Shown piece by piece: positions 39,351-64,000 of a stretch of 64,000 bases of DNA. The notes beneath the pieces were generated by a model. The model was not told the DNA's origin and did not search any database. It saw nothing but the letters and a program-made list of their open reading frames with translations. A program made the translations under genes and the position numbers. The DNA lies in NCBI GenBank assembly GCA_003024785.1, contig PUQB01000139.1, forward strand, positions 442,405 through 506,404, in the 5' to 3' direction. How positions within the stretch are numbered: the stretch's first letter is position 1; each line of letters opens with the position of its first letter. The DNA is from Selaginella tamariscina (lineage: Eukaryota > Streptophyta > Lycopodiopsida > Selaginellales > Selaginellaceae).

Positions 39351-39674
39351 TAAATCATGACAAAAGCCTCAGTTTCAAATATTGAAGACGTGTTTTGAAC
39401 ACGATCTCTCTCTCTCTCTCCACAGTCTTCTAAGCGAATAAACAATGGTTTAACAAGTACATGATATACAAATAAACAATGTATAGTATAGATTATACAT
39501 ATATGTATAGGTATTTGAATACTTACATACACCTTCGCATATGTATAACATATAAAAATTGAATTTACAAATGCCATTAAATAATACCAAAAAGCTCCAG
39601 AGGAGATGTGTATATATATAATATATATATATTGATGGCTGTGTTTTCACACAGGTAGAGATGTATAAATATGT
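39351..39674. other. Spacer before transposon
   Basis: AT-rich with CT and TA microsatellites; no gene seen. Confidence 0.5.
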
Positions 39675-39683
39675 AAATGTCAG
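39675..39683. repeat. 9-bp target-site duplication, left copy
   Basis: AAATGTCAG, repeated exactly at 51799-51807. Nine bases is the duplication length made by Mutator-superfamily transposases. Confidence 0.85.
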
Positions 39684-39756
39684 GGTCTCGGCGAAGAGAG
39701 GCTCCGGCTCAAGGGCTTCGTAATTTTCTAGTATATTCGTGGATCTTCCAGGTTTA

Positions 39757-39793
39757 TTCTAGCATATTCTAGAATATTCTTAAGAATATTTTT
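39757..39793. promoter_or_regulatory. Heat-shock-element-like array, left end of transposon copy 1
   Basis: Alternating TTC and GAA triplets in 5-base steps (TTCTAGCATATTCTAGAATA, then TTC and AAGAATA) match the nGAAn consensus bound by heat-shock factors. Imperfect at one unit. Confidence 0.4.
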
Positions 39794-40160
39794 ATATAAG
39801 TTTTTTTAATATGCCGACTGGCTTAATATTTGCCGACCAACAATAAATCATTTAAATTTTTAGAAATTTTTTTGAATACTTTATAAAAAAGTTCAATAAG
39901 TTACTATTCAAACAAAGCATTTTTATGTATACCATTTATCCTTGTAGCACCGTGGTCATGAACTCTGCTGCAATTCACCAGCAAACGGTGGACCTCCATC
40001 TCACTGAGCGATCGCCTTTGTAGAAAGTATGTGACGTCCGGGTTCAAGCCAAGCACACGGTGTAGACAAGTACATGTGTACACATGGGCTCCAACTTTTG
40101 CTTTTCTGAAAGGTAGAACAACTGCATGTAGGATAAGTACTGATAGTCACCTTTGCAGAG

Positions 40161-41052
40161 TCATTTCCTGCCGACACAACAAAGCCTCCTTCCGTCCTCT
40201 AATGTCACTTCAACATTTCTCACACGACCTAAAAACGTCTTGGCCTTGTGGAAATTCTTCTCTTGTTCCTTAGACATTTTTGTTGGAGTCCGGACCATGC
40301 GTCCTTCGAAAGGTGGAATTGTTGTAGATCCAGCTCCATGTGGTGGCGATGGTGTTTTGTCCTTCTGACCCTCATCTACTCTTCCTGCCGTCCCCTGTAA
40401 ACCTTCCAGAACAAAGCCTGCATCCTGTAGTTCTCTGACCTCCTCACTTGTCAGCTTCGTTTCCTTGAGCACAGGCCAAACCGTTGGTGGTGTTGGAATT
40501 CTTGATGAAGAATTTTGCCGTTTGGCCGTGAAACACCCTGAATCTCTTGGGCAAACCACATCATCTGTTGTACATACTCCTCATTCCCCAAGGCATCACT
40601 GTACATTCGTTTTCTGTAGAATCCTGGTGCTGGCACTCTACTTGGATAACCGATTGGTTTTCCACACAGAGCAGTTCCTTCCTGATTCATCCCCAAACAC
40701 TTAACCTTACTGGATGCTCCGATTTGTCTGATGGCCCACTCTTTTGTGCAATCTCTCTCTCCAAAACCTCTTCGAACCTTAACCTCTTTCTCCTGTTGTT
40801 TTGGACCACCCGCTCTGTGTACTCTACATCATGTCTGTGTGAACGTCGAGCATCAGATGTTCTGTTCCTATGACTGTTCTCCTCCATTTGCACTCGAACG
40901 TTAGTGGTACTCGTGAACTCCGGGTGGTCAAGTGTTCCTCGTCTTCCACCAGATTGATAATTGTTGATGGAGATACACTTTTCCCTTCAGAGAGTTTGCG
41001 TTGCACTCATTTCAATAGAGTTTCCTTCGAAGGACCTGACCCTGTATACCTC
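40161..41052 (-). CDS. Transposase-strand C-terminal region, interrupted by LTR element
   Basis: Several minus-strand frames continue beyond the nested LTR element: a piece with TIINLVEDEEHLTTRSSR, a basic helical piece (RRKRLRFEEVLEREIAQK), one with EGTALCGKPIGYPSRVP and a tail with GRVRNVEVTLEDG. No family was recognised; the Cys/His spacing does not clearly make a SWIM finger. It may be the 3' part of the transposase gene or a separate accessory gene, cut off from its upstream part by the LTR insertion at 41053-45436. Confidence 0.4.
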
Positions 41053-41619
41053 TGTTAAACAGGAAAACAGGAAACCCACCTTTTCCTGTTTAACAGGTTT
41101 TCTTTCACACAACCTTTAAGAAAGGCTACACACTTTCTTTCTATCAACTCTCCACACATATATATATATCAAATCACCTTCTCTCAAAGCCACAATGACT
41201 AGTCTTCGAAGTCAAGGGCAAGAACAGATTTTGGCTATTGCCTTGTTAGATCCATTCATTGAGAGTATACATACACACACACAAGATCTTATAATATGCA
41301 CATTTCATTGCTAACATGAATAGAGAACAAAGTGTGGAGATCCTCTCTCTCCTGCTGGAACTTCTTGTGGAGACCCTCTCTCCTGTTAGAACTTCATGTG
41401 GAGACCCCTTTTCCCTTGCCCTAACTTACTCTTAACTACCCTTCCTCTCGCCACGTCATCCTTTTCATTTTCCTTACTCTCCTTTTCCTTACTCACCTTT
41501 TCCTCTCAGTAAGGATTTTCCTCCTTCACAGCCTTTCCTTCTATGCTTACTACAGACCTTCCTACCCTTATTCTCTCCATAGTAGGATGTCCTATGCTCT
41601 TAATATTTTACCTTTAACA
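41053..41619 (-). repeat. 3' LTR (relative to element)
   Basis: 567-bp terminal repeat with TG...CA ends, closely matching 44869-45436. Confidence 0.9.
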
Positions 41620-42378
41620 CTACTCCTCCTTATTCGTTGTTGTGTCCTCACGGCAACTATCCTACTCCTTCCTTTGGAAGTTGATCTTCATGGTACTGTG
41701 GATTCTCTCCTTTATACTTCCAAAAGTTGTTCTTCACTTTCCTAAGTTCTTGGTTGGAAGTTGATACCTTAAGTTGCAGCACTTATTTCCTGCATCTTGT
41801 TCCTTAGGATCAGCATTTGCTTTCTCTTCCTGTTCCTGAATAGTTTTTCCTTCATGTTCCTTTGTCTTTTTCTGTGTTTATATTCACTTGCTTTAAAGGA
41901 TCTGTGGTATACACATATGTATACTTGAAGGTTGTTCCTGCAAATCAATCTTATACAGGATTGCCTTATAAAACTTTTCATGTAATCAGGTTTCGTTTTC
42001 CTTTGCTGAACAGTTTTCTTTCCTTTCAGCACTACGTGAAGGTCAATATGTTAAGACCTTCAATTAGGATATGCTTTCAGGATTTTACTTCTTCCTGATT
42101 ATCTAGCCCATTAAACCAATCATATCCTTCTAAAAAAGAGGTCGGATTTCCTTTTTAACATACCTTTTAGTATGATTATAGATCATAGTTTTCCTTCTCC
42201 TTCTTCTACCATCATCTTTCTGTTCTCCATTTGTTCTGAATAACCTTATCAGACTTAATCCATAGTCTGGCTAAGAACATAGTATAACATATCCTTTTCT
42301 TCTTTTTGTAGGACAAGCAAGGATATCTATATTTAATCCTTTTACTTGTAGTGACTCCTCTCATTATGTCTAGTGGCC

Positions 42379-42606
42379 TTACACTCGTTGATCAGCCATT
42401 TTAAGGTTAAATGGGGCAGGTTGGATTGGTCCTAAACCCATCCTTTTACATTCACCTTCTTCAATAAAATTCACACCTGAACCTCCATCTATTAACACTC
42501 TCTTTAACTTATTCCTGCCCACATATACTGTGATGCAAGGAACTTGTCCATCATAATCACCTTCATACAATACTTCCTTATCCATTTTAAATTGTATATC
42601 CTTCAC
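42379..42606 (-). CDS. Retroelement aspartic protease fragment
   Basis: The frame includes VLIDGGSGVNFI, a retropepsin-type active site with DGGSG in the place of the usual D(S/T)G, followed by a helix/strand pattern as in plant Ty3-type elements. It lies downstream of gag on the same strand with stops between, so expression as one polyprotein would need frame changes. Only this core is seen. Confidence 0.6.
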   Translation of the reverse strand: MKDIQFKMDKEVLYEGDYDGQVPCITVYVGRNKLKRVLIDGGSGVNFIEEGECKRMGLGPIQPAPFNLKMADQRV

Positions 42607-43176
42607 TCGAAGGTGATGTTTGTTGAACCAGACTTAATGCATTTAATATTTGATTTCTTATATACGGAGCTACATGTATCAGCTGTCTAAGCGTGACCTT
42701 TACCTCCTGATTTATAGCTTGGTAATACATGGAGTCCATTGTCTCATCCTGTAATGGTAACAATGAAAAACCTTGTTTACCTTTGTCTACAGCACCTTTA
42801 TCTATGCCTTCTGATTCATTATCAGTCCGACCTTTTTGGTCAGGATTTTGCTCCTACTCATTTACATTTTCCTGTAACGAACCCACCTTCTTGTTAGGAA
42901 TAGTTTCTATCTCTCCTTCTCCATAACAAGAATATTCCTTCTCCTTCTCTTTAAGAGCTATAATTGCCCTTGCAACAGGTGGATACTCATCTTTTTCCTT
43001 CTCTATTTGAATTAGCCGTGTTGTAGGCTGCACATTAGTCATTCTGGTGGAAGTAGGAGGTTGTACATTTCCCTAGGACATTCCCTAGAGATATGTCCTG
43101 TTTCACCACATGTATAATAAACCTGGGAAGGAAAATTCCTACCCTGTGGTCCTTGTCTATCACTTATCTGATTATA

Positions 43177-44514
43177 TTACTCATTTCTACCTCTTTGACC
43201 TTGATAAGGTCTTGCTTCTCCTCTATATTGTTTATCATTTATTTCTCTATAGGAAATATCCTTCTGTTGTCCATTATATGGACCAACGTTGATGAATCCA
43301 TGCCTGGGAGGTCTTGTCGGAATGCACGTTCCAAGATTCCTTTCTCCATAATACCTGTCCTCTCTGTTTTCGTAAGAAACATTCCTTCTCTCATAATATC
43401 CGAAGTTCCTATTCTGATAAGGAACTTCATTCCTTCTGCCATATATATTATTCCTGTTCTCATAAGGAATAATATTATCATTCCTGTCATTCCCACGGTT
43501 TCTATTAGGTGGGAACCTTCTAGGAGGTGGACGTTCCTCCATTCTCCGTTCTCTCTCTATACCAGCCACATTTTGGTTTAGGAAATGTCTACAGTTCCGA
43601 GCCACATGTCCTTCCTTTCCACATATTTGGCACGTAGGCAATTGCAGCCTACATTCCTCCACTGTATGGCCATGATTGTTACATTTAGTGCACCATACCT
43701 TTGCCTTTATCTCCTCCTTAACTGTCATTCCCTTCAAAGTTTTCATCATTTGAGCCAATGCTTTCTCATTTATTGAATATTTACGAACCTTTACTACATC
43801 AGCTTCCTCTTTCTCTTCATCAGAGGATTCTTCCTTTCTTCCATATACTTTCAGCTTTTCTTCTGCAATCTTTTCTATTTGCCTTCTCTTCTTCTCATAT
43901 ATTTTTAATTGATTAATAAGATCCTCTCTATTCTTTTCATTTATAGTGAGTGCTAGATCTCTATATGGTTTTAGCAACCCTTGCTTATACCATTGCAATA
44001 AGGCATCCATCTTTACATATGCCTTACACTTTTTCTCATGTTTCTTAAAAAAATGTGTATATTCATCTATCTTTTCTGTTTTGCCCTGAAGGATGGTCCT
44101 TAACTTCTCTAAATGTTCCTCCAGCAATTCCTCCTTTTTGAAATATTCTTTAAAAGCATCAATAACCTTCTGATAATCCTCTCTGACTTCCTTTTCAAGA
44201 TCATAATACCAATCAAAGGCATTTCCTTTCAATGTATGTGGAAATATAAGCAGCTTTTCTGCATCCGTCACCTTATACAGTTTTACTACCTCTTCAAACT
44301 GTTGTAAGTGCCTTTTTGGATTTTCCTTCTTTCCTGCAGAGAATGTGGAATACATCACTGTACCCCCAAACATTCCTGGGAAAAGTGCCATATTTGTAAT
44401 AATCCTTTGCTCTGGTGTACTTCCTCTTACACCTTCCTCCCTTCCTCTTCGGGAGTTCTCAGGAGATCCTTCTCCTTGCAATCTCGGTCTATGAACATGC
44501 ACTCCTCCTCTCAT
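43177..44514 (-). CDS. Retrotransposon gag polyprotein with two zinc knuckles
   Basis: An open frame of 445 residues. The N-terminal half is a capsid-like helical region (retrotransposon gag: FDWYYDLEKEV, FKEYFKKEEL), then a Lys/Glu-rich coiled region. Two CCHC knuckles follow: CTKCNNHGHTVEEC and CQICGKEGHVARNC. The C-terminal tail is Arg/Asn/Tyr-rich with repeated short RN..Y units. It packages element RNA. The long intact frame and similar LTRs suggest recent insertion. Confidence 0.88.
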   Translation of the reverse strand: MRGGVHVHRPRLQGEGSPENSRRGREEGVRGSTPEQRIITNMALFPGMFGGTVMYSTFSAGKKENPKRHLQQFEEVVKLYKVTDAEKLLIFPHTLKGNAFDWYYDLEKEVREDYQKVIDAFKEYFKKEELLEEHLEKLRTILQGKTEKIDEYTHFFKKHEKKCKAYVKMDALLQWYKQGLLKPYRDLALTINEKNREDLINQLKIYEKKRRQIEKIAEEKLKVYGRKEESSDEEKEEADVVKVRKYSINEKALAQMMKTLKGMTVKEEIKAKVWCTKCNNHGHTVEECRLQLPTCQICGKEGHVARNCRHFLNQNVAGIERERRMEERPPPRRFPPNRNRGNDRNDNIIPYENRNNIYGRRNEVPYQNRNFGYYERRNVSYENREDRYYGERNLGTCIPTRPPRHGFINVGPYNGQQKDISYREINDKQYRGEARPYQGQRGRNE

Positions 44515-44868
44515 AGTCTCCTCTAAACCAGTTGTTTGATACTGCCTCCAATTCTCTAGATCAGCCTCAGATTTCTATATTGTTTCTGTAATATTCTCTA
44601 CTATCTTTCCAAGGATATTTTGACGTCTATTTCGTCAGTTTCAGGTTGCTGTTGGGGCAGCCACTCTATTGGCCTACCTTTGGTTCCTTTGATTAGCTAA
44701 GGCTGGATCAAGACGATGGTTCCTCCAAGGTTCCATTCATTCCTTCTCCTATACACATCCGACTCTACACCTTCTGAGCCATTTCCAGAATGAAAATTCT
44801 GTCACTTTAACCTCTTTTCTCAATGAATGCTAACACTGCAATGGCGAAATCCCTCCGTGGTCGCCAAA

Positions 44869-45436
44869 TGTTAAACAGGAAAATAGGAAACCCACCTTTT
44901 CCTGCTTAACCGTTTTCCTTTCACACAACCTTTAAGAAAGGCTACACACTTTCTTTCTATCAACTCTCCACACATATATATATCAAATCACCTTCTCTCA
45001 AACCCACAATGATTGGTCTCCGAAGTCAAGGGCAAGAACGAATTTTGGCTATTGCCTTGTTACATCCATTCATTGAGAGTATACATACACACACACAAGA
45101 TCTTATAATATGCACTTTTCATTGCTAACATGAATACAAAAGAACAAAGTGTGGAGATCCTCTCTCTCCTGCTGAAACTTCTTGTGGAGGCCCTCTCTCC
45201 TGTTAGAACTTCATGTGGAGACCCCCTTCTCCCTTGCCCTAACTTACTCTTAACTACCCTTCCTCTCACCACGTCATCCTTTTCCTTTCCTTACTCTCCT
45301 TTTCCTTACTCAACTTTTCCTCTCAGTAAGGATTTTCCTCCTTCACAGCCTTTCCTTCCATGCTTACTACAGACCTTCCTACCCTTATTCTCTCCACAGT
45401 AGGACGTCCTATGCTCCTAATATTTTACCTTTAACA
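44869..45436 (-). repeat. 5' LTR (relative to element)
   Basis: 568-bp terminal repeat matching 41053-41619; flanked on its right by ACCTC. Confidence 0.9.
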
Positions 45437-45470
45437 ACCTCCCTTCTATTGCTGCTTTCACCTTCGCACA

Positions 45471-47455
45471 CTACAGAACTGCATCAGTGAGGTCTAACAT
45501 TGTCGCCTCCAGTAGCGGTACTCTTTTGGCCAATCTTGCTCTTCTTGCTCTTGCGTGAATCACTTCAGCATTGTTTGTAGTTGGAACGCTTGCGAGTCCT
45601 TCTTCTGTCATGTCTCCCAGTTCCACCATGGAGATGTGGTCCTCATGCCTAATCCACCAAGACAGCCATGTCTTCAAAGCACGAATGTTTGATGCTCGTC
45701 CTTCCCAAAAAGACTCCAGAATTGCTAGTTGTTTGTTTTTAGATTGTTCATTCAGTGCTGTAGGCCAGGCACGAGCAAGCTTCATGTGTTCTTCGTAGTG
45801 TTCTTCTGCGATCCATTTCTTTGTCACCTGACGCACGGATTGCATAAAGTGAAACAGACAGCTTCTTTCTCTTCCTTTCATCTTTGCTCCGTTATTGAAT
45901 ACTTGGCGCAAGGCTATCCATATCGCTCCAGCCTCATTCGACATGAAACTAGCAAAGTTTACATTCTCTAAACCCTGTTTCTTACAAACCTCTAGCATTG
46001 TGTTCAAGAACTTCAGCACTATAACATTATCTTTGCGGCACATATCTGCGTAAGCTATAGTGACCATGGATCTGACACTGTAAGAGAGCATTAGATAACA
46101 AAGATTAGAAAGTGTTATGAAGAGTTCTACAACTTACAATGGGTCATAAAGGTGTATTCCAATTGTCGCCCAGTCTGGTATACGGTGTGTGTGGTCCAGA
46201 ACAACCCATTGATCATGAAGGTCTCCTCCACTTTGACACCTTCTGATGTAGTCAACTCCTGAACCCGGTCCCTCAACTGTCATTTTGAAGATCAAAGGCT
46301 GCTCCTCAGCACCATGCAGTTCCATCCCTGGAACATGTATGACGTGAATGAAAGGTATTGGCAACTTTGTTTTCAGCTCCAAAAGACCCTCGTAACCCTC
46401 TCTAAAGTGTGTCTCCTTCTGTCTTGATTGTGTAATCCAGTCCCGAGTCCTAAAGAAAAGGTCACGTCAATGTGTTGAGATCTAAAGAAAAATACCTTTG
46501 ATGGTTTATAGAGGTTCAAGTTTTGAGAGTAAACCAGTGTACGAGACTTCTTCTCCTTGAAAAGTTCTTCAAAGATGAGCTCACGTGTAGCTTGAAACTC
46601 AATCACTCGTTGATTGGTTCGCGACTGCTCTTTACCACGTTGCTGACACTAGATTGGCATGCTGAACGTTTGAAGTTGACACTGAGGGGCTGACTGGATG
46701 CTGATGAACACCTCTGTGAATGAACAACCTTGTAAAAGAAATGTCGTCTGGCAGAATGTAGTATACATAAACCGGACAAGTGTGCACTAGCAATGGCTCC
46801 TCTCCACAATGCTTACATTTCATGCCTTTTACTTTGCCTGACTCAGTTGTCTTCGCCTTCTCCACAGCACCCTTGAAGTGACATTCATTTGCTTTCTTCT
46901 CAAAAGCCAAGTAGGTAGGATTGATGCATTTGAGATGTCCGACACATGAACTTCGACTGACTCGCACCGGAAATGCCAGTGTGTTGTGCTCGGGTGTGTC
47001 CAATGGTAGCAGCCATCCTTGTGATTCATCCCCAAGTACTTCTCTGTGCTTTCTTTCTTTGGAGGAAGTTCGTAAATGACATTTCCATTGTATATCTCGG
47101 TAGTTCAGAGACTCTTTAACTTCAGACGAACCAATGAGATCCTTCCCTATCCTACATTTGTCTGCTCTTAGAAGACACACAGCATGGATTCCTCACGCTC
47201 CTTTGTCTGCAACCTGAACAACGGGCCCTTTGCCGGGCACAATGTGTAAAAGACAAACTGGTTTGATGCATTGCCTTCTAGTAACAACTCCACATCTTCT
47301 CTAGAACTCGCAGAAACTGATATCAATTGAACCACATGTATACTTAACCAACAAGGAATGTTGAAAGCAAAGTGAAGATCATGTTCAAACACAAAAGCAT
47401 TTCCATCTTCATCGACTGGGAAATCTTTGTCAATGCCTAAGGTAACTCTGGCCAT
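45471..47455 (-). CDS. Mutator-like transposase
   Basis: Minus strand, ATG at 47455. Pieces in order: 47455-47168 (start MARVTLGIDKDFP), 47180-46632 with a WRKY/GCM1-like zinc-binding segment (CVGHLKC, CKHCGEEP, then HRGVHQHPV), 46606-46373, 46382-46134 (probable first catalytic Asp within HDQWVVLDHTHR), and 46091-45471 with SFMSNEAGAIWIALRQVF (second acidic position apparently Asn or Glu), the CxxH motif CLFHF, and TTNNAEVIHARARR, which holds the expected last catalytic Glu. Frame shifts and introns between the pieces are not resolved. Assignment to the Mutator superfamily rests on these motifs and on the 9-bp target duplication. Confidence 0.72.
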
Positions 47456-48436
47456 GACAACAAGGAAAAGCTCGGTGGTTTAGGAAAGCAAAGCAAAAGA
47501 TTAAACACACTCTCATTCGCCAAAAAAATTATAATCGTTGATAATAAACGTGAACACACTTTTGTATATAATTAATTCTATGCTGCCCAGCTCACAATGT
47601 TCTTAATGTTGTCCTCTCTAGTATCACCGATGTAATTTAATTATTACCTTTTATGATTTGAAATATCTTCACCTTTATCAATTATTCACATATTTTAATA
47701 TTAACCTAAATTTAATGTCACATTTATTCCGTAGGGTTTACTGTTTTCATTGCGTCTAGGGTTTTTTGGTAGATAGGGTTTATTTTCCATTGCGGCTAGG
47801 GTTTTTTTATCTCAATCTGATACTGAAATCTCCTCCAAGGGGCCTGAGAGGAGCGGCACCGTCCATTTCGAGTCGATTCGTGTAGCGCCCAAGTAAACCA
47901 GTCGAGATTTCTGTGCCGATTTAGATTGTCGGCACCATCCTTCAGTCGGCAGCCACAAGGTTTGTGCAATTTCTTTTTTTTATTTGCGGCTCAAGTATCC
48001 ATATCACAATGTGTTTTTTTTTCCAGAGTTAAAGGGTCTTCCCATTTGTGCCGTCTGAGAGAGACGGCACCATCCTTGCTCAGTCGGCAACCACAAGGTT
48101 TTTCAATTTTTTTTTTTTTTGATTTGCGGCTCAAGTATCCATATCACAATGTTTTTTTTTTTCAGAGTTAAAGGGTCTTCCCATTTGTGCCGTCTGAGAG
48201 GGACGGCACCATCCTGCTCAGTCGGCATACTTCATACATCATCTCATCTGTGCCGTCTGAGAGGGTCGGCACCAATCTCTCAGTCGGCAGTTTTGCTCAT
48301 CTACTTTTCTGTGCCGACTGAGAGGGTCGGCACCATCTAGCTTGAGTCGGCAGCCACAAGGTTAGTCATCTTTGTTTTTGTTTTTTTTTGTCTCCTAATC
48401 AATTGACTTGTGTGTTTGCTTTCCAGAGTTTACAAA
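47456..48436. promoter_or_regulatory. Divergent control region with hairpin array
   Basis: It lies between the transposase (-) and the ParB-methyltransferase gene (+). Five inverted repeats of the form GTGCCG(T/A)..CGGCAC occur at about 47913-47935, 48048-48070, 48187-48209, 48249-48271 and 48311-48333; the later ones have 7-8-bp stems around a TGAGAGG loop. Interspersed half-sites CAGTCGGCA.CCACAAGGTT recur, and a block of about 130 bases (from TTTGCGGCTCAAGTATCC) is duplicated. The region before 47840 is AT-rich and featureless. The array recurs in copy 2 at 63655-63945. Confidence 0.7.
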
Positions 48437-51400
48437 ATGGTGAGAGCTTCAAAACGTCTACTAGAGACTGTGCCTGATGAAGAGCCACGGGAAGAGAAGA
48501 GGATATCGAAGCACAAGCGAGGAAGAGAGGAGAACCATCTAATGTAGCAAAGGAGGATCCTCCAGTGACTCAGTCTCAAGTAGTACCAGTTGAGCAGGAG
48601 CAGCCTCCATCAACATCACAGATTTCCCGGAGAGCTCGTCGCAGTTGCCTCCTTCATCCGCTGAGGTTGCAGTCCTGAACGAGCAAGTGCAGATGACAGA
48701 GGCAGTTGAAGCTAGCGAGGACGACTTGGAGGAGGCAGTCAGCAAAAAGAGAGGCCGCGGAAAGCTGATCAAAAGGCAAGAAGGCGAAGAGCGATAAGGA
48801 GCCGAAGGAGTTATACAGCATACCGGCCAGCCTGCATTTGGAGAGCTCAGCGAACCTGCTCGACAAAATTACTATCAAGGGACTTGGTGATCCTCCTGAT
48901 GTGCCATCTGAGAATGCATTCGAACGAGGTGGTTCGACGAGTGAACCCAGGGGACTTGGACAGGCTGGTGTCATCGTTGAAGAAGGCTGGTTATCTACGC
49001 AACACGGCCTTGTTCATTCTGTCCATCGGAGATCCACTCACTGCTGAGGAGCTATCGGAGCTGTCGAAGGACACGGTTCAGTACGAGCAGCACCGGTCTT
49101 TCGAGCAAGCTCTTACTCAGCCGGAGTACAAACAGTGGGCTTCAAGGCTCTCAAACGGAAGTTCAGCTGCTGGGACGGGAACCATAGGCTACAGGCTTTG
49201 CAGAAGCTCTACCGAGAGGATGCAGAGGACAACCAGCGATGGGCTATTGCGTTCGATCGAGTTTCATCTCCACAGAACCTCGACAATCTTCAACTGGTTT
49301 CGATGTTCCAATCGATAAACATGTGAGTATTTTCTTTTCTTTTGTTAAGAGTCTAGACTTACAGTTTCATGAACAGATCTTCAGCAACATCTGTGGAAAC
49401 AACACTACCACATATTCTCCTCGCTGTAAAGGCGGTCTGCACTAGTACTGAAGGAACTCAGAAAATCCTCGAGTCACTCACGGAGGTTGATCGTCTTGAG
49501 GTGCGGAAGTGGAAGGAGAGTGCAACAGGAAAGACGGCTTGGCATCCTCTTCCGAACCTGATCTGCGCAAAGATCCTTTTCAAGGTAACCTCGATTTGAA
49601 TTGATAGGAAAGAAGTTTTTAACTTATTCTATGTGCAGAACGAGATCGACGATGATCTCGACAGAGCAGTCACCAGTGCTAAAGGCAATCCACAGTTGAG
49701 GTGAACCTGAAGCAGCTAGTGTACAAGAAGCATGACAAGCGTATGCACAAGTTCCTCTCTCATAGACCCAGAGTTGGGGGAGGAGTGGTTCCAGAAGGTG
49801 ACAAACATCTCTCATAAGCAGTGTCGCTGGATGGGCATTGAGAAGCTGTACGCGATGTCAAAGGCGAAGATTTCCAAACATGCTGCGACTCCGATACTTG
49901 AACAAGCTCACTCGTCTCGAATCCAAGGCAGAACAACAGACACTTGGGCTACCAGGCATGCAGGACAAAGAGTGGATCAAGTGGTTCACCTTGGACTTAT
50001 ATTGGAAGGCTGTGTGCGAGGAAGCCATTCAGATCCTTAAGGGGTTGCGAGAGGATGGTGAAGAAGTTGGAACGGATGTCGACTTCATGAGCTGGTTTGA
50101 CGAGATGCGAACTCGGAGCAAGTGCCTGGTCTTTCAGCCCTTCCATGACTGCATACGGTTCACTTATTCGATGGAGCCGAATGAGTTTCTGGAGCGTGAG
50201 GAGTCTGCGCGTCGGATGATATGGAGGTAAGCTTTCATTCCAGCATTGCTACTACTACTTTGTGTTAAGGTTCATACTGGCGAAGAAAATGACACCGTCT
50301 CAGACGATGAAGCTGTGGACAGATCATACAAGCGAGCCTCACATGTGGTCGAAGAGCAGAGGAGCTCTAACACCGTTCGAACGGAGCATGTTCCATTCTG
50401 GCTCGACTGTCCGTCGCAACAGCCACCAGCTTGGGAGAGCTCACTGTTCGACGTGCATGCAATGATCTTCCAGCGATTGTTTGGGAGCCGGACGAAAGTA
50501 GAGGCTATCAAGAAGAGCAAGATGAAGAAGACGGTGCGGAAGACAACTACACCTGCAAAGGGATCGGGAGCGGGACCAAGCTCTTCTACAGCACCTCCGC
50601 GGCAATCGACTTTACAATCAATGAGGTGCAGCCACTTGTAGCTGTTTGGACATCAAGGACGACCTGATGACCTTCATCCCGACACTGGCTGCATCCCGTG
50701 GATCCTACGACCTGGCTGTGTGCGATATGGAGGAGATGAGCAGGTCTTTCTTCGAGCCGGGTGCTTCCCAGACAGAGGTGTACACCAAGCTCCGACAACA
50801 GGTTGACAAACTACATACGGCTGAGTCACAAACGGTGTTCCAGGAAGTGGTAGGTGAATACGGCTTCAACCTCATCATCCTCGACTTGCCCAATGAGCTT
50901 GTATATGGAGGTGCTAGCATCAACAAGGACATTGTGCAGCTAGATCCAGTGAAGTTTGAGGAGGCCTTGCAGTTCAGTGGAATGCACTTGGCAGCGAGTG
51001 GTTTCATGGTCGTCTTCGCGAGTTCTCCTTCTGTTTCGGCGGTGATTCAGGCGGCTGCAGTAATCAACTGGAGGTTGCAGGGACTTACAGCGTCTACCGT
51101 GCACGAGGCTGGGGATACCGTGACAAAATTAAGGTAAGCTAGCTATTCAAGTTCAAGTTTAACTTGGTCTATGTGGCAGGATAACTTGTTGGTTCTCTTG
51201 GTGCTGCAAAGCTTGAGAAGAAGTCGAAGAGCCAAACCCTCTGGCGTTGACGAACACGATCCTCGTCGATACTGCCGACCATTTTCAGAGGCTTGGTAAG
51301 GAAGTACTTTGCTTTGTTATCCTAATGGACAGATGATGATTCAACCAAGAGTGTTCGACTCATGCAGCTTTTGATCGAGCGTCTCAGTAGACCTGGCGAC

Positions 51401-51625
51401 CTAGTCTGGGATATTGTTTCGGAACGGATCATCGTTGTTAGCTGCCGTCGAGCTGGAAGGAATATTATAGGAACCAAGAAGAGTTTCGAACTCTCTAGGT
51501 TGGCAACAAACAAGCTCGCAGAGAACATTTGACCAGAGGAAATACCTACTCAGACACTTCCACGTCCAAGCCTCGCTGGTGGTTCGAGGACTGTAGCTTT
51601 ACGTAAGATGAAGAAGAAACTTTAG
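48437..51625 (+). CDS. ParB-like / DNA methyltransferase-like fusion protein, transposon cargo (copy 1)
   Basis: ATG 48437 (MVRASKRLLET). Read with copy 2, the product of roughly 1,000 residues has a charged N-terminus; a ParB/sulfiredoxin-like domain (LVSSLKKAGYLRNTALFILS, then WDGNHRLQALQKLYRED at 49168-49215); a helical middle (KEWIKWFTLDLYWKA); a Lys-rich linker (50510-50600); and a beta-class N4/N6 methyltransferase-like domain with motif IV as LIILDLPNELVYGG (about 50872-50913), HLAASGFMVVF, and motif I region near 51397-51470. Introns seem to lie at 49323-49377, 49585-49638, 50227-50268, 51134-51180 and about 51298-51332. In this copy motif I is damaged and a stop follows shortly, so it looks inactive. 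The ParB plus methylase order resembles bacterial and phage proteins. Confidence 0.65.
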
Positions 51626-51727
51626 TTAGTGTGTATTGAGTAATAAATTAAGCTAATATAAAAAATAAGGTATAAATACAACGGTTTTACTAGAAAAAAA
51701 AATTTGCCCACTAAGGCCGACCAGAAA

Positions 51728-51765
51728 GAATATTCTAAAATATTCTCAAATATTCTAGAATATTC
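51728..51765. promoter_or_regulatory. Heat-shock-element-like array, right end of transposon copy 1
   Basis: Eight consecutive 5-base units alternating GAA-type and TTC (GAATATTC, AAATATTC, AAATATTC, GAATATTC) between the methyltransferase gene and the terminus. The last four units, starting at the final GAATATTC, fit nGAAn exactly. Confidence 0.45.
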
Positions 51766-51798
51766 GAGCCCCCCAAGCCTCCAAAATGGCGGCACTCT

Positions 51799-51807
51799 AA
51801 ATGTCAG
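51799..51807. repeat. 9-bp target-site duplication, right copy
   Basis: AAATGTCAG, identical to 39675-39683. Confidence 0.85.
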
Positions 51808-53587
51808 TATATATTATAAATGTACACGTTAGTATTTAACTTCTTCCTAAATTGTAAATATGTGGTCGCATAAATATTATGAAAGAAAAAGAATTTATGT
51901 TTGAAATGGAATTTAAATTAAAAAAATGTAAAGTTTAAAATTTTGATTATAAACTCATTTTATAGACCTTCTGTATCCCACTCTGTGTAGGTGTACAAAT
52001 ACATATATATAAAATACAAAATAGGTTTTATGAACACCCTTAATTAAACATTATAATTTTATTGGTTCATAGATCAAACCTGTGAATATTCTAAGTATAA
52101 ATACACTAGAATATGTTAAAACCAAAGGCATCTTAAAGTACAAAAATTTCGGAAAAAGAATGCACTTCAAAGAATCTAGATCGATTGTTTAATTAGGATA
52201 CTATTAAGGTAAAGAAGATTTAAATACAAACATCTATTATATGCATATATAAGTTTATTTAGTTTTTAAAAAACTTAAAAGTCCTGTCTGAGCCGGCATC
52301 TGCTGCATTTCATATTACTTTAACTTTTTTATACCACAGCATATTAACATATTAATGCAATGGGCATATAACTTTAAAGGTTTCTGAAAGTGTTTTATTT
52401 ATTTATTTATTATTATTTATAAATATTTAAGATTACTTTTTAGTGCAGAAAAATCAATCTTTTTTATTAACAAGCCATACGTAATGGACATTTGAGCTCT
52501 GTAATAGTAAGATAGAAATTAATTACTATATTATAAAGAATTAAAGATAAATAGCTTGTATGACCCTTCTGGTTTCAACTGACCTTCAAATATGCATGGC
52601 TGCTATGAATGTGTGCGTGTGTGTGTGTGTGTGTGTGCATATATATAATATGCACATATATTTATGAACTTTAAGTATAAATACAACATATATTATATGA
52701 GTAATACCAAGAAAGATTTACTTTGAAACAGATATTTTAAATTCAGAAATCATATCAAAGATCATGTAAATAGCGTTGAATGTTATATATAGAAGTGTAA
52801 AAGTTTATACATATATATATAACATATTATTAATATATTCTTGTTTATATAATAATTATTTTTTTATGTTTATAAGTATCTTATTATTAAATATATTCCG
52901 GTTTCATATAATTATTATTTCTTGAATAAACTCACGCACTTATAACATATTTCAAACACATATATATTCATGTTGGAGCTTTAAAGACACATACATTCTT
53001 GTAAAATAATTATTTTCCTTGCATATATACCATTTAATTTCAATAATATAACTCTATACATATCATTCCCATAGAATTTTCTATGATGTGAATATTCTTT
53101 AATGTTTTGTTTAGAATCTTCAATTTTCACCTAACTGTGTAAAAATTTTCATAAAAAAAAATGTATGTACTTGCTCTTTATTAGTTATCTTATTATATTT
53201 ATATTTAAGTATTAAATATGATCTCTAGGATATTCTTATTGTATTTAATAATTATTTGACATTTAAGCTGTTTATCATATAGTAAATATTATAATTTTAC
53301 ATAACTAATTAAGTTATATACTGATATTCATGTTTGAACATTTTAAAAAATCCACCATAAACCCATAAATTAAATAAATTATTATTTTTAAAACATTAAA
53401 TGGATAAAACGTTTAAACTACTTTAAATTAATTAATGAATTTAAATGAATGTCCATTTAAATATAAAAACGTATGTGTCTTTAAATAATAAATTACATAA
53501 TTTTTAAAAAGAAATAAGGTGTGAAACTTTGAAGGTTATTTAGGGAATTTTCCCTTAATTTTATGCAAACATTCTCTAAACAGCTTG
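51808..53587. repeat. AT-rich DNA, part a copy of the PPR 2 upstream region
   Basis: No gene seen. From about 52070 to 53010 it shares many words in order with 58495-59340 and with 38450-39200 (for example AACCTGTGAATATTCTAAGTA, TTAACAAGCCATACGTAATG, ATTTCTTGAATAAACTCACG), so it is a third copy of that upstream region. A (GT)n tract lies near 52615. Confidence 0.6.
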
Positions 53588-55814: not shown

Positions 55815-58460
55815 TCAGAAACCCAGCAGCTTCCTGCACATAGACTGAAAGTACTTCTTCCCTTCCTCCACCATACCTGCGTGGTTACAAGCAGTCAGTA
55901 TGGACACCATAGTAATACCATCCATTACTACGCCTTCCTCGTCCATCTTTGTCGCTAAACTAAACACTTTTGAGGTCTTCCCAAGTGAACTATAGCCCGA
56001 TATCAATGCACTCCAGGAAACCATATCTCCAGACTGCATCATATCAAACAAATGTACAGCAGCATTCATACCTCCACACTTCCCATAGAAATCCACCAGA
56101 CAGTTCTGTATAAGAAGGTCTTGCTCGAACCCGAACCTACATATCTGTGAATGGACACCTCGCCCAATAGCTAACTCTGCTATAGTCCCGCAAGCTCTCA
56201 GTGCAGCCATAAACGTGACAGTGTCAAACCCGGAAGCCATTGTCAAGAAGAAATCCACGGCAAGCTCACTTTCGCCGTTCTCTATATATCCCATGAGAAG
56301 AATGTTAACTGATGAAATACTCCAGAAAGGCGTCCTATCGAATACACCCCTGGCGTCCAGCATGCTCCCACACTTACAGTACATATCCAGTAAGGTGTTT
56401 GCCACATATATGTCCGTGTCGTATCCGTGTTCTTTTGCTTCGGTATGTACTTCCATGCCCTTCTCTAAACAAGACTGTTTATTCAATCTGCTCTCACTAG
56501 CAAGACCCGCACATGCCTTCAAGGCCGCAACATATATAAGAGAGTCCGGTTCACAGTCTACACTTGAGAACAGATCCATCGCCACCAAGCTTTCGTCGTT
56601 TTCAATGTATCCAAGTATGAGAGTGGTAAACGAAACAACGTTCCAGTAAACCATCCTATCAAAGACGAACCGGGCATCGAGCATGGTCTTACACTTGCTG
56701 TACATATCTACTAAGTTAATTGCCACGAACGGGTCCGTGTCGAAGCCATGCTCTCTTGCCTGTCTATGAATGTTCATCTCTCTCTCTAAACAGAACTGCC
56801 TGTCATTGCTTTCGCCGGTTAAACTGATACACGCCTTAAGAGCACCCACAAATGTAACCGAGTCCGGTTCACAATCCATATTACTAAACAACTCAAGAGC
56901 AACCAAGCTCTCACCGTTCTCGACATAACCAAGTATGAGTGTATTCCATGAAACAGCCGTCCACTGTACCATATTATCAAACACGGCGCGAGCCTGCAAG
57001 ACACTCCCACATTTCCCATACATATCAATCAAAGTACTTGCCACAACCACATTGTTATCATATCCACATTCCTTACACTTCTTGTGTATATCCATCCCCT
57101 TCTCTAAACAAACTTCAGTGTTTACACCGCTGTTCTCTGTAACCAAACGTGTACACGCCTCGAGTGCAGCAACAAACGTGACAGAACTCGGTTCACAATC
57201 CATTCTACCGAACAACTCCATAGCTACCGAGCTTTCGGCGTTTTCGACGTACCCAAAGAGAAGATTATTCCACGAGACGAATGCACGGTACCTCATCCTG
57301 TCGAATACAGCACGTGCGTGTACCATACTCCCACACTTACTGTACATATCTATCGAGGTACTTTCCACAAAGAGGTCGTCGGAAACCCCACATTCTCAAG
57401 TGTGTATATGCCTTGAGTGCAGCAACAAACGTGACAGAACTCGGTTCACAATCCATGGTACCGAACAACTCCATACTACCGAGCTTTCGGCGTTTTCGAC
57501 GTATCCAAGGAGAAGATTATTCCAAGAAACGAATGTACGGTACCTCATCCTGTCGAATACAGCCTGTGCGCGTACCATACTCCCGCACTCACTATACATA
57601 TCTATCAACGTACTTTCCACAAAGAGGTCGTCGGAAACCCAGCCTGTTTATGAATAATCATCCCCTTCTCTAAACTAAACAGGCGGTCCGTGCTTGCTAA
57701 GTCCGTACACGCCTTCAATGCAGCAACAAATGTAATAGAGCTCGGTTCACAATCCATACTCATAAACAAATCTAGAGCTACAAGACTTTCATCATTCTCC
57801 ACGTACCCTTGAATGAGACTCGTCCACGAAACAGTGTCACGTCGACACATGTTATCAAAACTTCACGAGCGTGGCGCATACTCCCGCACTTGCTGTACAT
57901 ATCTACCAACGTGTTCGCCACGTATATGTCTCCGTCGAGTCCACGCTCTTTGGCTTGTGTATGAATGGCTGTCCCCTTTGATAAACACAACTGCCTGTCC
58001 ATCTGTTTCTCTCACTAGCCAATCTTGCATATGCCTTCAAAGCAGAAACAAATGTGAGAGTGCTCGGTTCACAGTCGATCCTATCAAACAACTCCATAGC
58101 TAACAAGCTTTGATCATTCTCGACATATCCCATAAGAAGACTGTTCCATGAAACAACATTCCAGTGCGGCATTGTATCAAAGACAGCTCTGGCGTGGAGT
58201 ACGCTCCCACACTTGCTATACATTCTGATCAGAGCGGTGGCTACGTACTTGTTGGTGTGAGAATCGGATTCAAGCGCATCCAAATGGAGTTTCTTTCCCT
58301 CCTCCAAGTTTTTGCATTGTTTTAGTGCAGCGAGTGATGATGCAACAGCCACGGTGTGATCATTGATCTGTGGTGCTTCTGTGGCAGCGGTCGTGTACCA
58401 AGCTAAGAGTTCACCCAGAAATGTACGCGTTGGATGAAGCCATTGATGCTTCACTTGCAT
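55815..58460 (-). CDS. PPR protein 2, single exon, internally duplicated and frame-disrupted
   Basis: Minus strand, ATG 58460, stop 55815, about 880 residues with no intron. At least eight modules of about 100 residues repeat a rigid pattern: an ANTLVDMYSKCGSM-like P motif, a VSWNNLLLGYVEN-like L motif, MDCEPSSVTFVAALKAC, then EKGM.IH..A.E.G. The last (DMVSWSALISGYSSLGKTSK, SILTACNHAGMVEEGKKYF) stops at KLLGF, so there is no E or DYW domain. The frame breaks near 58010, 57860, 57640, 57470 and 57380. The module at 57150-57388 and that at about 57410-57640 are nearly identical, a recent tandem duplication. The 1,554-base downstream frame is intact. Its 5' end also exists as duplicates at 38.3 and 39.3 kb. 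Confidence 0.8.
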
Positions 58461-60170: not shown

Positions 60171-60216
60171 GGAGTGCCGCCGTTTTGGAGGCTTGGGGCC
60201 CAGGAGGCCTGGGCTC

Positions 60217-60254
60217 GAATATTCTAGAATATTTTAGAATATTTTAGAATATTC
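60217..60254. promoter_or_regulatory. Heat-shock-element-like array, transposon copy 2
   Basis: Eight 5-base units: GAA-TTC-GAA-TTT-GAA-TTT-GAA-TTC, each separated by TA. The first three and last two units match nGAAn perfectly. Same position relative to the terminus as 51728-51765. Confidence 0.5.
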
Positions 60255-60359
60255 TTTCTGGTCGGCAGTATTGGCCTCAGTCGGCAAAAAAAAATTTCTA
60301 GTAAAACTATTGTATTTCTACCTTATTCTTTTTTATATTAACTTAGCTTAATTTATTAC

Positions 60360-63300
60360 TCAATACACATTAGCTAAAGTTTCTTCTTCAATCTTAAGTA
60401 AAGCTGCAGTTCTTGAACCACCAGCTAGGCTTGGACGTGGAGGTGTCTGAGTAGGTATTTCCTCTGGTTTAATGTTCTCTACGAGCTTGTTTGTTGCCAA
60501 CCTAGAGAGTTTGAAACTCTTCTCGGTTCCTATAATATTCCTTCCGAGCTCGACGGCAGCTAACAACGATGATTCGGTTCCGGAACCAATATCCCAGACT
60601 AGGTCGCCAGGTCTACTGAGACGCTCGATCAAAAGCTGCATGAGTCGAACACTCTTCGTTGAATCATCATCCTGCAACAAACTTCCATTAGGATAAACAA
60701 AGTAAAGTACTTCCTTACCAAGCCTCCTGAAAACAGTCGGCAGTATCGACGAGGATCGTGTTCGTCAACACCAGAGGGTTGGCCTCTTTGACTTCTTCTC
60801 AGAGCTTTGCAGCACCAAGAGAACCAACAAGTTATCCTGCCACATAGACCAAGTTAAACTATGAACATGAATAGCTAGCTTACCTTAATTTTGTCACGGT
60901 ATCCCCAGCCTCGTGCACGGTAGACGCTGTAAGTCCCTGCAACCTCCATGTTGATTACCACAACCGCCTGAATCACTACCGAAATAGAAGGAGAACTCGT
61001 GAAGACGACCATGAAACCACTCGCTGCCAAGTGCATTCCACTGAACTGCAAGGCCTCCTCAAACTTCACCGGATCTAGCTGCACAATGTCCTTGTTGATG
61101 CTAGCACCTCCATATACAAGCTCATTGGGCAAGTCGAGGATGATGAGGTTGAAGCCGTATTCACCTACCACTTCCTGGAACACCGTTTGTGACTCAGCCG
61201 TATGTAGTTGTCAACCTGTTGTCGGAGCTTGGTGTACACCTCTGTCTGGGAAGCACCCGGCTCGAAGAAAGACCTGCTCATCTCCTCCATATCGCACACA
61301 GCCAGGTCGTAGGATCCACGGATGCAGCTAGTGGTCGGGATGAAGGTCATCAGGTCGTCCTTGATGTCCAAACCAGCTACAAGTGGCTGCACCTCATTGA
61401 GTAAAGTCGATTGCCGGCGAGGTGCTGTAGAAGAGCTTGGTCCCGCTCCCGATCCCTTTGCAGGTGTAGTTGTCTTCCGCACCGTCTTCTTCATCTTGCT
61501 CTTCTTGATAGCCTCTACTTCGTCCGGCTCCCAAACAATTGCTAGAAGATCATTGGCATGCACGTCGAACAGTGAGCTCTTCAATCTGGTGGCTGCTGCG
61601 ACGGACAGTCGAGCCAAAATGGAACATGCTCCCGTTCGAACGGTGTTAGAGCTCCTCTGCTCTTCGACCACATGTGAGGCTCGCTTGTATGATCTGTCCA
61701 CAGCTTCATCGTCTGGACGGTGCATTTTCTTCGCCAGTATGAACCTGTAACACAAAGTCAGACAGTAGCAATGCTGGATGAAAGCTTACCTCCATATCAT
61801 CCGACGCGCAGATCCTCACGCTCCAGAAACTCATTCGGCTCCATCGAATAAGTGAACCGTATGCAGTCATGGAAGGGCTGAAAGACCAGGCACTTGCTCC
61901 GAGTTCTCATCTCGTCAAACCAGCTCATGAAGTCGACATCCGTTCCAACTTCTTCACCATCCTCTCGCAACCCCTTAAGGATCTGAATGGCTTCCTCGCG
62001 CACAGCCTTCCAATATAAGTCCAAGGTGAACCACTTGATCCACTCTTTGTCCTGCATGCCCGGTAGCCCAAGTGTCTGTTGTTCTGCCTTGGATTCGAGA
62101 CGGGTGAGCTTGTTCAGTATCGGAGTCGCAGCATGTTTGGAATCTTCGCCTTGACATCGCATACAGCTTCTCAATGCCCATCCAGCGACACTGCTTATGA
62201 GAGATGTTTGTCACCTTCTGGAACCACTCCTCCCCCAAGTCTGGGTCTATGATGGAGAGGAACTTGTGCATACGCTTGTCATGCTTCTTGTACACTAGCT
62301 GCTTCAGGTTCACCTCAACCTGTGGATTGCCCTTAGCACTGGTGACTGCTCTGTCGAGATCATCGTCGATCTCGTTCTGCACATAGAATAAGTTAAAAAT
62401 TCTTTCCTATAAATTAAATCGGAGGTTACCTTGAAAAGGATCTTTGCGCAGATCAGGTTCGGAAGAGGATGCCAAGCCGTCTTTCCTGTGAACTCTCCTT
62501 CCACTTCCGCACCTCAAGACGATCAACCTCCGTGAGTGACTCGAGGATTTTCTGAGTTCCTTTGTACTAGTGCAGACCGCCTTTACAGCGAGGAGAATAT
62601 GTGGTAGCGTTGTTTCCACAGATGTTGCTGAAGATCTGTTCAAAAACTGTAAGTCTAAACTCTTAACAAAAAAAAAGAAAATACTCACATGTTAATCGAT
62701 TGGAACATCGAAACCAGTTGAAGAATGTCGAGGTTCTCCGTGGAGATGAAACTCGATCGAACGCGAATAGCCCATCGCTGGTTGTCCTCTGCATCCTCGG
62801 TACAGCTTCTGCAAAGCCTGTAGCCTATGGTTCCCGTCCCAGCAGCTAAACTTCCTGTTTGAGAGCCTTGAAGCCCACTGTTTGTACTCCGGCTGAGTAA
62901 GAGCTTGCTCGAAAGACCGGTGCTGCTCGTACTGAACGTGTCCTTCGACAGCTCCGATAGCTCCTCAGCAGTGAGTCGATCTCCGATGGACAGAATGAAC
63001 AAGGCCGTGTTGCGTAGATAACCAGCCTTCTTCAACGATGACACCAGCCTGTCCAAGTCCCCTGGGTTCACTCGTCGAACCACCTCGTTCGAATGTATTC
63101 TACAGATGGGCACATCAGGAGGATCACCAAGTCCCTTGATAGTAATTTTGTCGAGCAGGTTTGCTGAGCTCTCCAAATGCAGGCTCGCCGGTATGCTGTA
63201 TAACTCCTTCGGCTCCTTATCGCTCTTCGCCTTCTTGCCTTTTGAATCAGCTTTCCCCGGCCTCTCTTTTTGCTGACTGCCTCCTCCAAGTCGTCCTCGC

Positions 63301-63576
63301 TAGCTTCAACTGCCTCTGTCATCTGCACTTGCTCGTTCAGGACTGCAACCTCAGCGGATGAAGGAGGCAACTGCGACGAGCTCTCCGGGAAATCTGTGAT
63401 GTTGGTGGAGGCTGTCTCTCAACTGGTACTACTCCAGACTGAGTCACTGGAGGATCCTCCTTTGCTACATTAGATGGTTCTCCTCTCTTGCCTCGCTTCT
63501 GCTTCGATATCCTCTTCTCTTCCCGTGGCTCTTCATCAGGCGCAGTCTCTAGTAGACGTTTTGAAGCTCTCACCAT
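60360..63576 (-). CDS. ParB-like / DNA methyltransferase-like fusion protein, transposon cargo (copy 2)
   Basis: Minus strand, ATG 63576, stop 60360. The gene matches copy 1 throughout but keeps parts that copy 1 lost: motif I VWDIGSGTESSLLAAVELGR and NIIGTEKSF (about 60510-60610) fits the SAM-binding D.F.GSGT..LAA..LGR..IG.E pattern of beta-class N4/N6 methyltransferases; motif IV is again DLPN (about 61121-61150) in place of DPPY; a Lys-rich linker (KKSKMKKTVRKTTTPAKGSG) is in frame with EVQPLVAGLDIKDDLMTFIP. The ParB-like part includes LVSSLKKAGYLRNTALFILS and, frame-shifted, the DGNHRLQAL equivalent near 62820. Several indels remain. Because the two copies break at different places, they give a consensus open frame. 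Confidence 0.68.
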
Positions 63577-63654
63577 TTTGTAAACTCTGGAAAGCAAACA
63601 CACAAGTCAATTGATGGAGACAAAATAAAAAAAAAACAAAGATGACTAACCTTG

Positions 63655-63945
63655 TGGCTGCCGACTCAAGCTAGATGGTGCCGACCCTCTCAGTCGGCAG
63701 AAGATGTAGAAGACAAACCTGCCGACTGAGATAGTTTGTGCCGACCCTCTCAGACGGCACTGAAGAGATATGGGTGCCGACTGAGATAGGATGGTGCCGT
63801 CCCTCTCAGACGGCACAAATGGGAAGACCCATTAACTCTGAAAAAAAACTTGAATGACTTGAGCCGCAAATCAAAAAAATAAAAAATTGAACAACCTTGT
63901 GGCTGCCGACTGAGCAGGATGGTGCCACTCTCTCAGTCGGCACAA
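63655..63945. repeat. Hairpin array, copy 2
   Basis: At least four inverted repeats GTGCCGACCCTCTCAG.CGGCA(C/G), the reverse complement of the array at 47913-48333, spaced differently, with the CTTGTGGCTGCCGACT half-sites at both sides. Confidence 0.75.
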
Positions 63946-64000
63946 ATGGGAAGACCTTAACTCTGAAAAAAAAAACACATTGTGGTATGGATATTTGAGC

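Follow-up and report, generated by a model that had tools for sequence, protein, structure and literature searches.

A Mutator-like transposon family of Selaginella tamariscina with a putative ParB-like and methyltransferase-like accessory gene and conserved AGTCGGCA arrays

Background

Transposons with DNA-modifying accessory proteins of their own have been reported from a few algae, and the portions of the literature available to us, to which all comparisons with published systems made here are limited, name no target for these proteins. An accessory gene of the Ectocarpus transposon Sola1-1_Ec32 encodes, on the strand opposite the transposase, a protein of 1104 residues that combines a ParB-like segment with an N4/N6 methyltransferase, and similar proteins are cited for green and red algae (PMC12477816). 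The VANC proteins of Arabidopsis VANDAL elements bind short motifs that are tandemly repeated in non-coding parts and remove DNA methylation from those elements (PMC5735166, PMC10398659), and C5 methyltransferases have been acquired in parallel by retrotransposons (PMC5890265). Here we describe a plant Mutator-like element (MULE) of Selaginella tamariscina that encodes, beside its transposase, an accessory (cargo) protein with a predicted methyltransferase site and a putative ParB-like segment. It lies in a stretch of 64,000 nucleotides (GenBank assembly GCA_003024785.1, contig PUQB01000139.1, positions 442,405 to 506,404 of the forward strand), which we call the window and whose first-pass annotation had pointed to the cargo gene.

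In architecture, the closest relative of this gene is the accessory gene of Sola1-1_Ec32 (PMC12477816). Both belong to DNA transposons, lie opposite the transposase and join ParB-like and methyltransferase parts in one protein, which has about 990 residues in our case. The comparison is one of descriptions, not of sequences, and the settings differ: a Sola1 superfamily element of a brown alga there, and here a plant element flanked by 9-bp duplications. The element described here also has arrays of the motif AGTCGGCA, whereas the available text on Sola1-1_Ec32 mentions no motif arrays (PMC12477816). In function, the closest precedent would by analogy be VANC. The likeness is one of layout only, an element-encoded accessory protein together with a short motif tandemly repeated in non-coding element parts, and the motifs are alike in length (AGTTGTCC and AGTTGTAC for VANC6, PMC5735166; AGTCGGCA here). 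VANC is described as neither a methyltransferase nor ParB (PMC5735166, PMC10398659). Related families differ in their VANC motifs, but AGTCGGCA does not change between two families whose exons are 48-72% identical, and binding was shown for VANC (PMC5735166), whereas AGTCGGCA is a candidate binding site known from sequence alone. Bacterial-type amino-methyltransferases occur in other eukaryotes, as in N4CMT of bdelloid rotifers and the N4-methylcytosine (4mC) methyltransferase of Marchantia, but those enzymes are described as host genes (PMC8885841) and the gene studied here belongs to a transposon.

We rejected the idea that this is a categorically new kind of accessory gene, since algal transposons with such genes have already been reported. 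What is new is that it occurs in another transposon superfamily and in a plant, together with a candidate target conserved between two old families. Among the papers listed in our search, which was confined to open-access literature (subscription papers and preprints were not covered), none described such a gene from a land plant or from any Mutator-like element, or a motif array accompanying such a gene.

Results

A Mutator-like element with two divergent genes

Two copies of one element with the same cargo gene are present in the window, as the first-pass annotation had stated: positions 47989-51797 (+) and 64000-60172 (-) are 94% identical over 3.9 kb, and the peptides that it had quoted (LKKAGYLRNTALFILS, DGNHRLQAL and GSGTESSLLAAVELGRNIIGTE) all occur. 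The parts of the element, other than the exons of the cargo gene, are as follows.

39674..39682, left target-site duplication TAAATGTCA, which has 2 occurrences only in the window, this one and that at the right end
39683..51797, whole Mutator-like element, copy 1, starting with GGGTCTCGGCG and ending with GGCGGCACTC, with a nested long terminal repeat (LTR) retroelement inside
39683..39704, + strand, candidate terminal inverted repeat on the left, imperfect and some 22 bp long, followed by subterminal GTCGGCA-type sites at 39812 and 39831
39951..47455 (limits approximate), - strand, transposase gene of copy 1, spliced, broken and interrupted by the nested LTR element
41053..45436, - strand, nested LTR retroelement, not part of the transposon, with the 5-bp duplication ACCTC
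47456..48436, central region separating the divergent genes; it holds tandem units some 139 bp long and 9 GTCGGCA/TGCCGAC sites
51776..51797, - strand, candidate terminal inverted repeat on the right, imperfect, preceded by an AATATTC-rich subterminal region
51798..51806, right target-site duplication TAAATGTCA, partner of the left one
60172..64000, - strand, copy 2 of the element, of which the window, ending within it, contains just the right part

The right end of copy 1 was set where its homology with copy 2 ends, and its limits agree with boundaries common to other copies and with the exact 9-bp duplication. The bases directly after the homology end at 51797 read TAAATGTCAG, which has one further occurrence in the window, at 39674. 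The imperfect candidate terminal inverted repeats agree at about 13 of 22 positions (counted by eye on the printed ends).

Target-site duplications of 8-11 bp, usually 9 bp, are a hallmark of MULEs. With the boundaries fixed, 9-bp duplications were exact in 10 of 18 two-ended genomic copies and within one base in 12 of the 18, compared with 0 of 306 mismatched end pairings used as a control. The 18 include copy 1 of the window, and locus L024 among them repeats the place of L017; L010, L011 and L021 are without a left end. At L017 and L024, two contigs carry one insertion and their printed flanks are identical; they may represent haplotypes or a contig that was duplicated. Because of these 9-bp duplications we assign the element to the Mutator type, to which the first-pass annotation had also referred it. 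Copies with both ends begin with GGGTCTCGGCG or a near variant, end with CACTC and measure 7.4-9.1 kb (an element of roughly 8 kb), apart from one 3.1-kb form. The latter, L026, is an internal deletion form that has kept both ends and, of the cargo gene, the 3' part.

The transposase gene was delimited from reading frames and from more open relatives at L037 and L039, which belong to a second family (B) of the element; the window copies belong to the first (A). Between families the transposase has 77% amino-acid identity over 199 codons. A MULE transposase is expected to match PF10551 and to contain a SWIM zinc finger. Transposase pieces of families A and B matched neither PF10551 nor any other Pfam transposase profile, and family B has a SWIM-like motif (PF04434, 16.6 bits, E 0.0056) that scores below the cut-off of 19.6. 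The retroelement nested in the gene has LTRs that are 94.6% identical and an open reading frame for gag (Retrotrans_gag, zf-CCHC), with no further open reading frame of at least 170 amino acids between 41053 and 45436; L012 and several other copies are uninterrupted at the place where it sits in copy 1.

Structure of the cargo gene and its copies in the genome

In copy 1 the cargo gene occupies 48437-51636 (+), and the span of 48437-51625 proposed earlier proved right for the coding part to within about ten bases. Six exons encode a product of about 990 residues.

48437..49322, + strand, exon 1, ParB-like segment
49377..49584, + strand, exon 2
49639..50226, + strand, exon 3, middle part, without a Pfam match
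50270..51133, + strand, exon 4, first half of the methyltransferase-like domain, with DLPN at the motif IV position (50883-50894)
51180..51295, + strand, exon 5
51332..51636, + strand, exon 6, region of motif I, which binds S-adenosylmethionine (SAM); broken in copy 1
60363..63576, - strand, cargo gene of copy 2, six exons

Both cargo copies of the window are disrupted by many small insertions and deletions, and the reading of about 990 residues was combined from two natural copies: in L023 the frame stays open across exons 1-5 and as far as the SAM motif of exon 6, and exon 6 of L021 is open to the stop. Across 19 sequences compared with L023, 236 of 260 gaps in the coding exons change the frame, and gaps are frequent relative to substitutions. 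The many small insertions and deletions may reflect decay or assembly error.

The genome examined comprises 300.7 Mb in 1391 contigs. A 501-base piece of the cargo gene gave at least 40 scored matches (of 533 first-look candidates), all 98-100% identical and including the window copy; these 40 rule out an artefact of one copy. We retrieved 20 places of family A matches for comparison (L009-L028). A search of the whole genome with the PF01555 profile returned 739 candidates, and all 150 that were scored exceeded the cut-off, giving at least 150 methyltransferase loci. The eight that we read (L029-L036) all encode this transposon cargo protein, and two of them (L034 and L035) represent family B. 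The layout of family B, seen in L037 and L039, is a transposase on one strand, an array, and the cargo gene on the opposite strand; both ends of L037 carry the 9-bp repeat CGCCTTTAA, and those of L039 a 9-bp repeat with a single mismatch (by eye). Cargo identity between families A and B is 58% for the ParB-like exon, 66% for exon 3, 48% for exon 4 and 72% for exon 6. At L038, a stretch of 7.4 kb that is 98% identical to its own reverse complement forms an inverted pair of family B cargo halves.

The methyltransferase-like half

Unmodified exon 6 matched the N6_N4_Mtase profile PF01555 with 39.8 bits in family B and 39.3 bits in family A, and an unmodified fragment of window copy 2 (60360-60764, -, 134 amino acids) with 33 bits, against a cut-off of 26.7. 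The PADLOC profile for Type II methyltransferases gave 44.9 bits, and hhalign aligned the motif I half with five phage methylases (references L041-L045) at a probability of 97.5 and E 5.7e-12. As in beta-class N6_N4 methyltransferases (PF01555, for example the methylase of Lactobacillus phage Lrm1), the SAM-binding motif I region is C-terminal, the position expected of that class, and the preceding helix, SAM loop and following strand align over 73 residues. From these alignments we read the C-terminal part as the predicted SAM site of a beta-class N6/N4 methyltransferase. Searches with single exons and with the stitched protein in Pfam, PHROGs, NCBIfam, PADLOC and PDB found methyltransferase matches around motif I only. 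In a scan of prokaryotic genomes the best 80 of 127 relatives were mostly from Streptomyces and alike over 35-92 of the 97 residues of the motif I exon; no relatives were found in viral contigs.

Motif IV of PF01555-type methyltransferases has the consensus (D/N/S)PP(Y/F/W). Neither family A nor family B shows it, both having the conserved core EYGFNLxIxDLPN at this place. The five phage relatives have DIPY or DVPY in four cases and DPPY in one, so position 2 of the motif is variable. The cargo protein differs from these phage methylases in having DLPN instead of DPPY, DIPY or DVPY, in its long N-terminal extension and in being encoded by a spliced eukaryotic gene. Because motif IV is altered to DLPN, the putative enzymatic activity cannot be assumed. 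Of the methyltransferase segment as first proposed, the SAM site thus stood and motif IV did not.

The ParB-like half

An alignment of three rows, two of them nearly alike, scored 19.7 against a profile of 19 bacterial ParB domains, at an hhalign probability of 2%. None of 150 column shuffles reached this score (mean 12.4, standard deviation 2.1), and the reversed alignment scored 11.5. When a plant-specific insert was left out, the score rose to 25.3-26.0 and the probability to 15-18%, with 0 of 100 shuffles as high (mean 11.6, standard deviation 2.0), and the alignment then paired box I and the DGNHR box in order. Two other cargo exons, taken for comparison, scored 11.3 and 14.8 against the same profile. 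The best matches of the ParB exon among phages and plasmids reached only E 8 and E 2. The ParB profile PF02195 does not match the cargo protein, but this miss is not decisive because PF02195 fails to find the annotated ParB of phage P1 as well. Of the 6 phage records of L040-L045, 0 match it. We regard the N-terminal segment as possibly ParB-like, not as ParB, which is a weaker assignment than that of the SAM site. Here the first-pass annotation held in part: profile-profile scores lie above those of shuffles, and no curated ParB profile matched. When searched with the two families that it had named, ParBc and N6_N4_Mtase, the protein matched the second (PF01555) above its cut-off and not the first (PF02195), and a resemblance to neither was not the outcome.

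Purifying selection in an old gene

Between families A and B, the proportions of nonsynonymous and synonymous differences (pN/pS) were 0.27/0.88 in exon 1, 0.22/0.86 in exon 3, 0.33/0.85 in exon 4 and 0.21/0.81 in exon 6, and the transposase had a pN of 0.15 compared with a pS of 0.83. Since synonymous sites are saturated, the families must be old. We also counted variants within family A, over exons 1-5 in 20 of the 21 aligned sequences (L026 left out). Variants found in a single copy were spread evenly over the three codon positions (141, 142 and 133), and 307 changed the amino acid (stops included) compared with 109 silent ones. Variants shared by at least three copies favoured the third position, with 12, 7 and 23 at the three positions, and with 22 changing and 20 silent (Fisher p 0.006). 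The accessory gene is under purifying selection and forms an old, selected part of the element; source copies keep the cargo gene, and individual copies drift or carry assembly errors.

C-to-T changes at CpG sites occur at 1.5 times the rate found elsewhere in the cargo gene, a figure that carries little information since the copies are young (median pairwise distance 1.3%). The observed/expected ratio of CpG is 0.79 in the cargo gene compared with 0.28 in the nested LTR element.

Arrays of AGTCGGCA shared by both families

All 24 GTCGGCA/TGCCGAC sites of the window lie inside the two elements, 13 in copy 1 and 11 in copy 2. The centre of copy 1 holds 9 where 0.06 would be expected, and the sequence outside the elements holds 0 where 2.1 would be expected. 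We compared the left 300 bp, the centre and the right 300 bp in one copy per family (L022 for A, L039 for B), and AGTCGGCA was the only 8-mer present in all six compartments, with left, centre and right counts of 1, 12 and 1 in L022 and 1, 19 and 1 in L039. In family B it forms perfect palindromes, CAGTCGGCATGCCGACTG, which occur at 1135 places in the genome, compared with 0 for a control read backwards. Among the palindromes listed, the mean spacing is 39.4 bp (39 spacings, after omission of three positions and a longer step on contig C58), and 6 of the 8 arrays among those listed have a scored PF01555 match at a distance of 3.2-3.5 kb, the remaining 2 being on contigs without one. The sites of family A, as seen in copy 1 of the window, lie in units of about 139 bp. 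Such units (window 47912-48353, and the centre of L022) resemble duplicated non-coding exons, with polypyrimidine-CAG, about 75 bases and AAG-GTATTT, each with a hairpin.

Sequences around the element

An AT-rich repeat of about 1 kb, in pieces that are 67-77% identical, lies at 38154-39216, 52299-53350 and 58302-59702; it adjoins both element copies, outside their boundaries. Positions 55815-58460 contain pentatricopeptide repeat open reading frames, with a 252-bp tandem duplication at 57149-57640.

Discussion

The reading that we prefer, in which our confidence and our doubt are about equal, is that AGTCGGCA lets the accessory protein recognise the element encoding it, which the protein then marks or shields in a VANC-like manner. 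The accessory protein (less likely the transposase) would bind AGTCGGCA sites and so gather on the promoter region and the ends of the element, and marking or shielding of the DNA there would keep the element expressed and mobile, as VANC does for VANDAL by another chemistry. Recognition of its own element through AGTCGGCA would be the most economical function for the protein, and the conserved AGTCGGCA arrays lend indirect support to the idea of own-element marking. A more specific version, which we consider unlikely, is that a ParB-like clamp loads on the parS-like palindrome arrays in the centre and on the sites near the ends, and that the fused methyltransferase writes 4mC or N6-methyladenine (6mA), such that copies escape host silencing and the ends are linked for transposition.

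Several results weigh against the preferred reading. In the methyltransferase half, DLPN in both families lacks the usual aromatic residue of the catalytic tetrapeptide, and 5 of 60 shuffles scored as high as the motif IV half itself. In the ParB-like half, the insert was selected with knowledge of the motif, the hhalign probabilities given above are low with and without it, and the second half alone scored 16.1, a value that 2 of 100 shuffles equalled. A search of the whole genome with PF02195 gave 0 matches at E values of up to 1, in contrast to a control that matched in 11 of 14 genomes, and neither Pfam searches with single exons nor PDB searches by sequence gave a ParB match. The whole cargo gene was open in 0 of the 21 aligned family A sequences (L010 is cut by a contig end and L026 is the deletion form) and in 0 of 3 family B loci (by eye). 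The right subterminal stretch of copy 1 has 0 GTCGGCA/TGCCGAC sites, compared with 2 in copy 2 and 2 in each of the seven family A loci listed. Finally, either protein could be the binder of AGTCGGCA, and sites near the ends would suit a transposase too.

This last point leads to a different reading of the arrays: the transposase would bind the AGTCGGCA sites, tandem duplication would have multiplied them in the centre, and the accessory protein would act elsewhere, for example as a transposition cofactor. The central sites do lie in tandem units, a pair of GTCGGCA-type sites is found near the right end in 7 of the 7 family A loci listed, and at the left end window copy 1 and L012 have a pair, the other loci a single site. 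Most sites, however, lie well away from the ends (the centre has 9 of the 13 in window copy 1, and 12 of the 14 and 19 of the 21 AGTCGGCA in the compartments of L022 and L039), and the regular perfect palindromes of family B, one about every 39.4 bp, exceed what recognition of ends would need, so that we hold this reading to be rather doubtful. Still less probable to us is that the palindromes act in RNA, with the central units of family A as duplicated non-coding exons whose hairpins influence splicing or processing of the transcript. By eye, the units of L022 can be read as a 3' splice site, about 75 bases and a 5' splice site, and one unit folds as RNA at -23.3 kcal/mol (z -4.9), but any DNA palindrome folds as RNA, the palindromes of family B lie outside such units, and sites are present near the element ends too.

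With respect to the protein itself, the methyltransferase half might be catalytically dead and serve as a SAM sensor or scaffold in a sequence-specific anti-silencing or partition-like factor, a serious possibility that falls somewhat short of probable in our judgement. The presence of DLPN in both families despite the 48% identity of exon 4 suggests a change that is old and kept, and the SAM exon is the best-conserved cargo exon; purifying selection on that exon would nevertheless fit an active enzyme too, and DIPY or DVPY in the phage relatives shows position 2 to be variable within the class. At the other extreme, the cargo might be a functionless fragment of a host or foreign gene, passively captured as in Pack-MULEs. 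MULEs often carry captured gene pieces, and every copy read is broken somewhere, but the gene has been kept in the same place and under purifying selection in two families that have reached synonymous saturation, and within family A the shared variants tend towards silent sites. We therefore rejected passive capture on the strength of the selection between families and consider it very improbable.

With this element and its candidate target AGTCGGCA, questions about such accessory genes become testable: whether a transposon can write or block its own epigenetic marks by a bacterial-type mechanism, and whether plant 4mC or 6mA may come partly from such elements.

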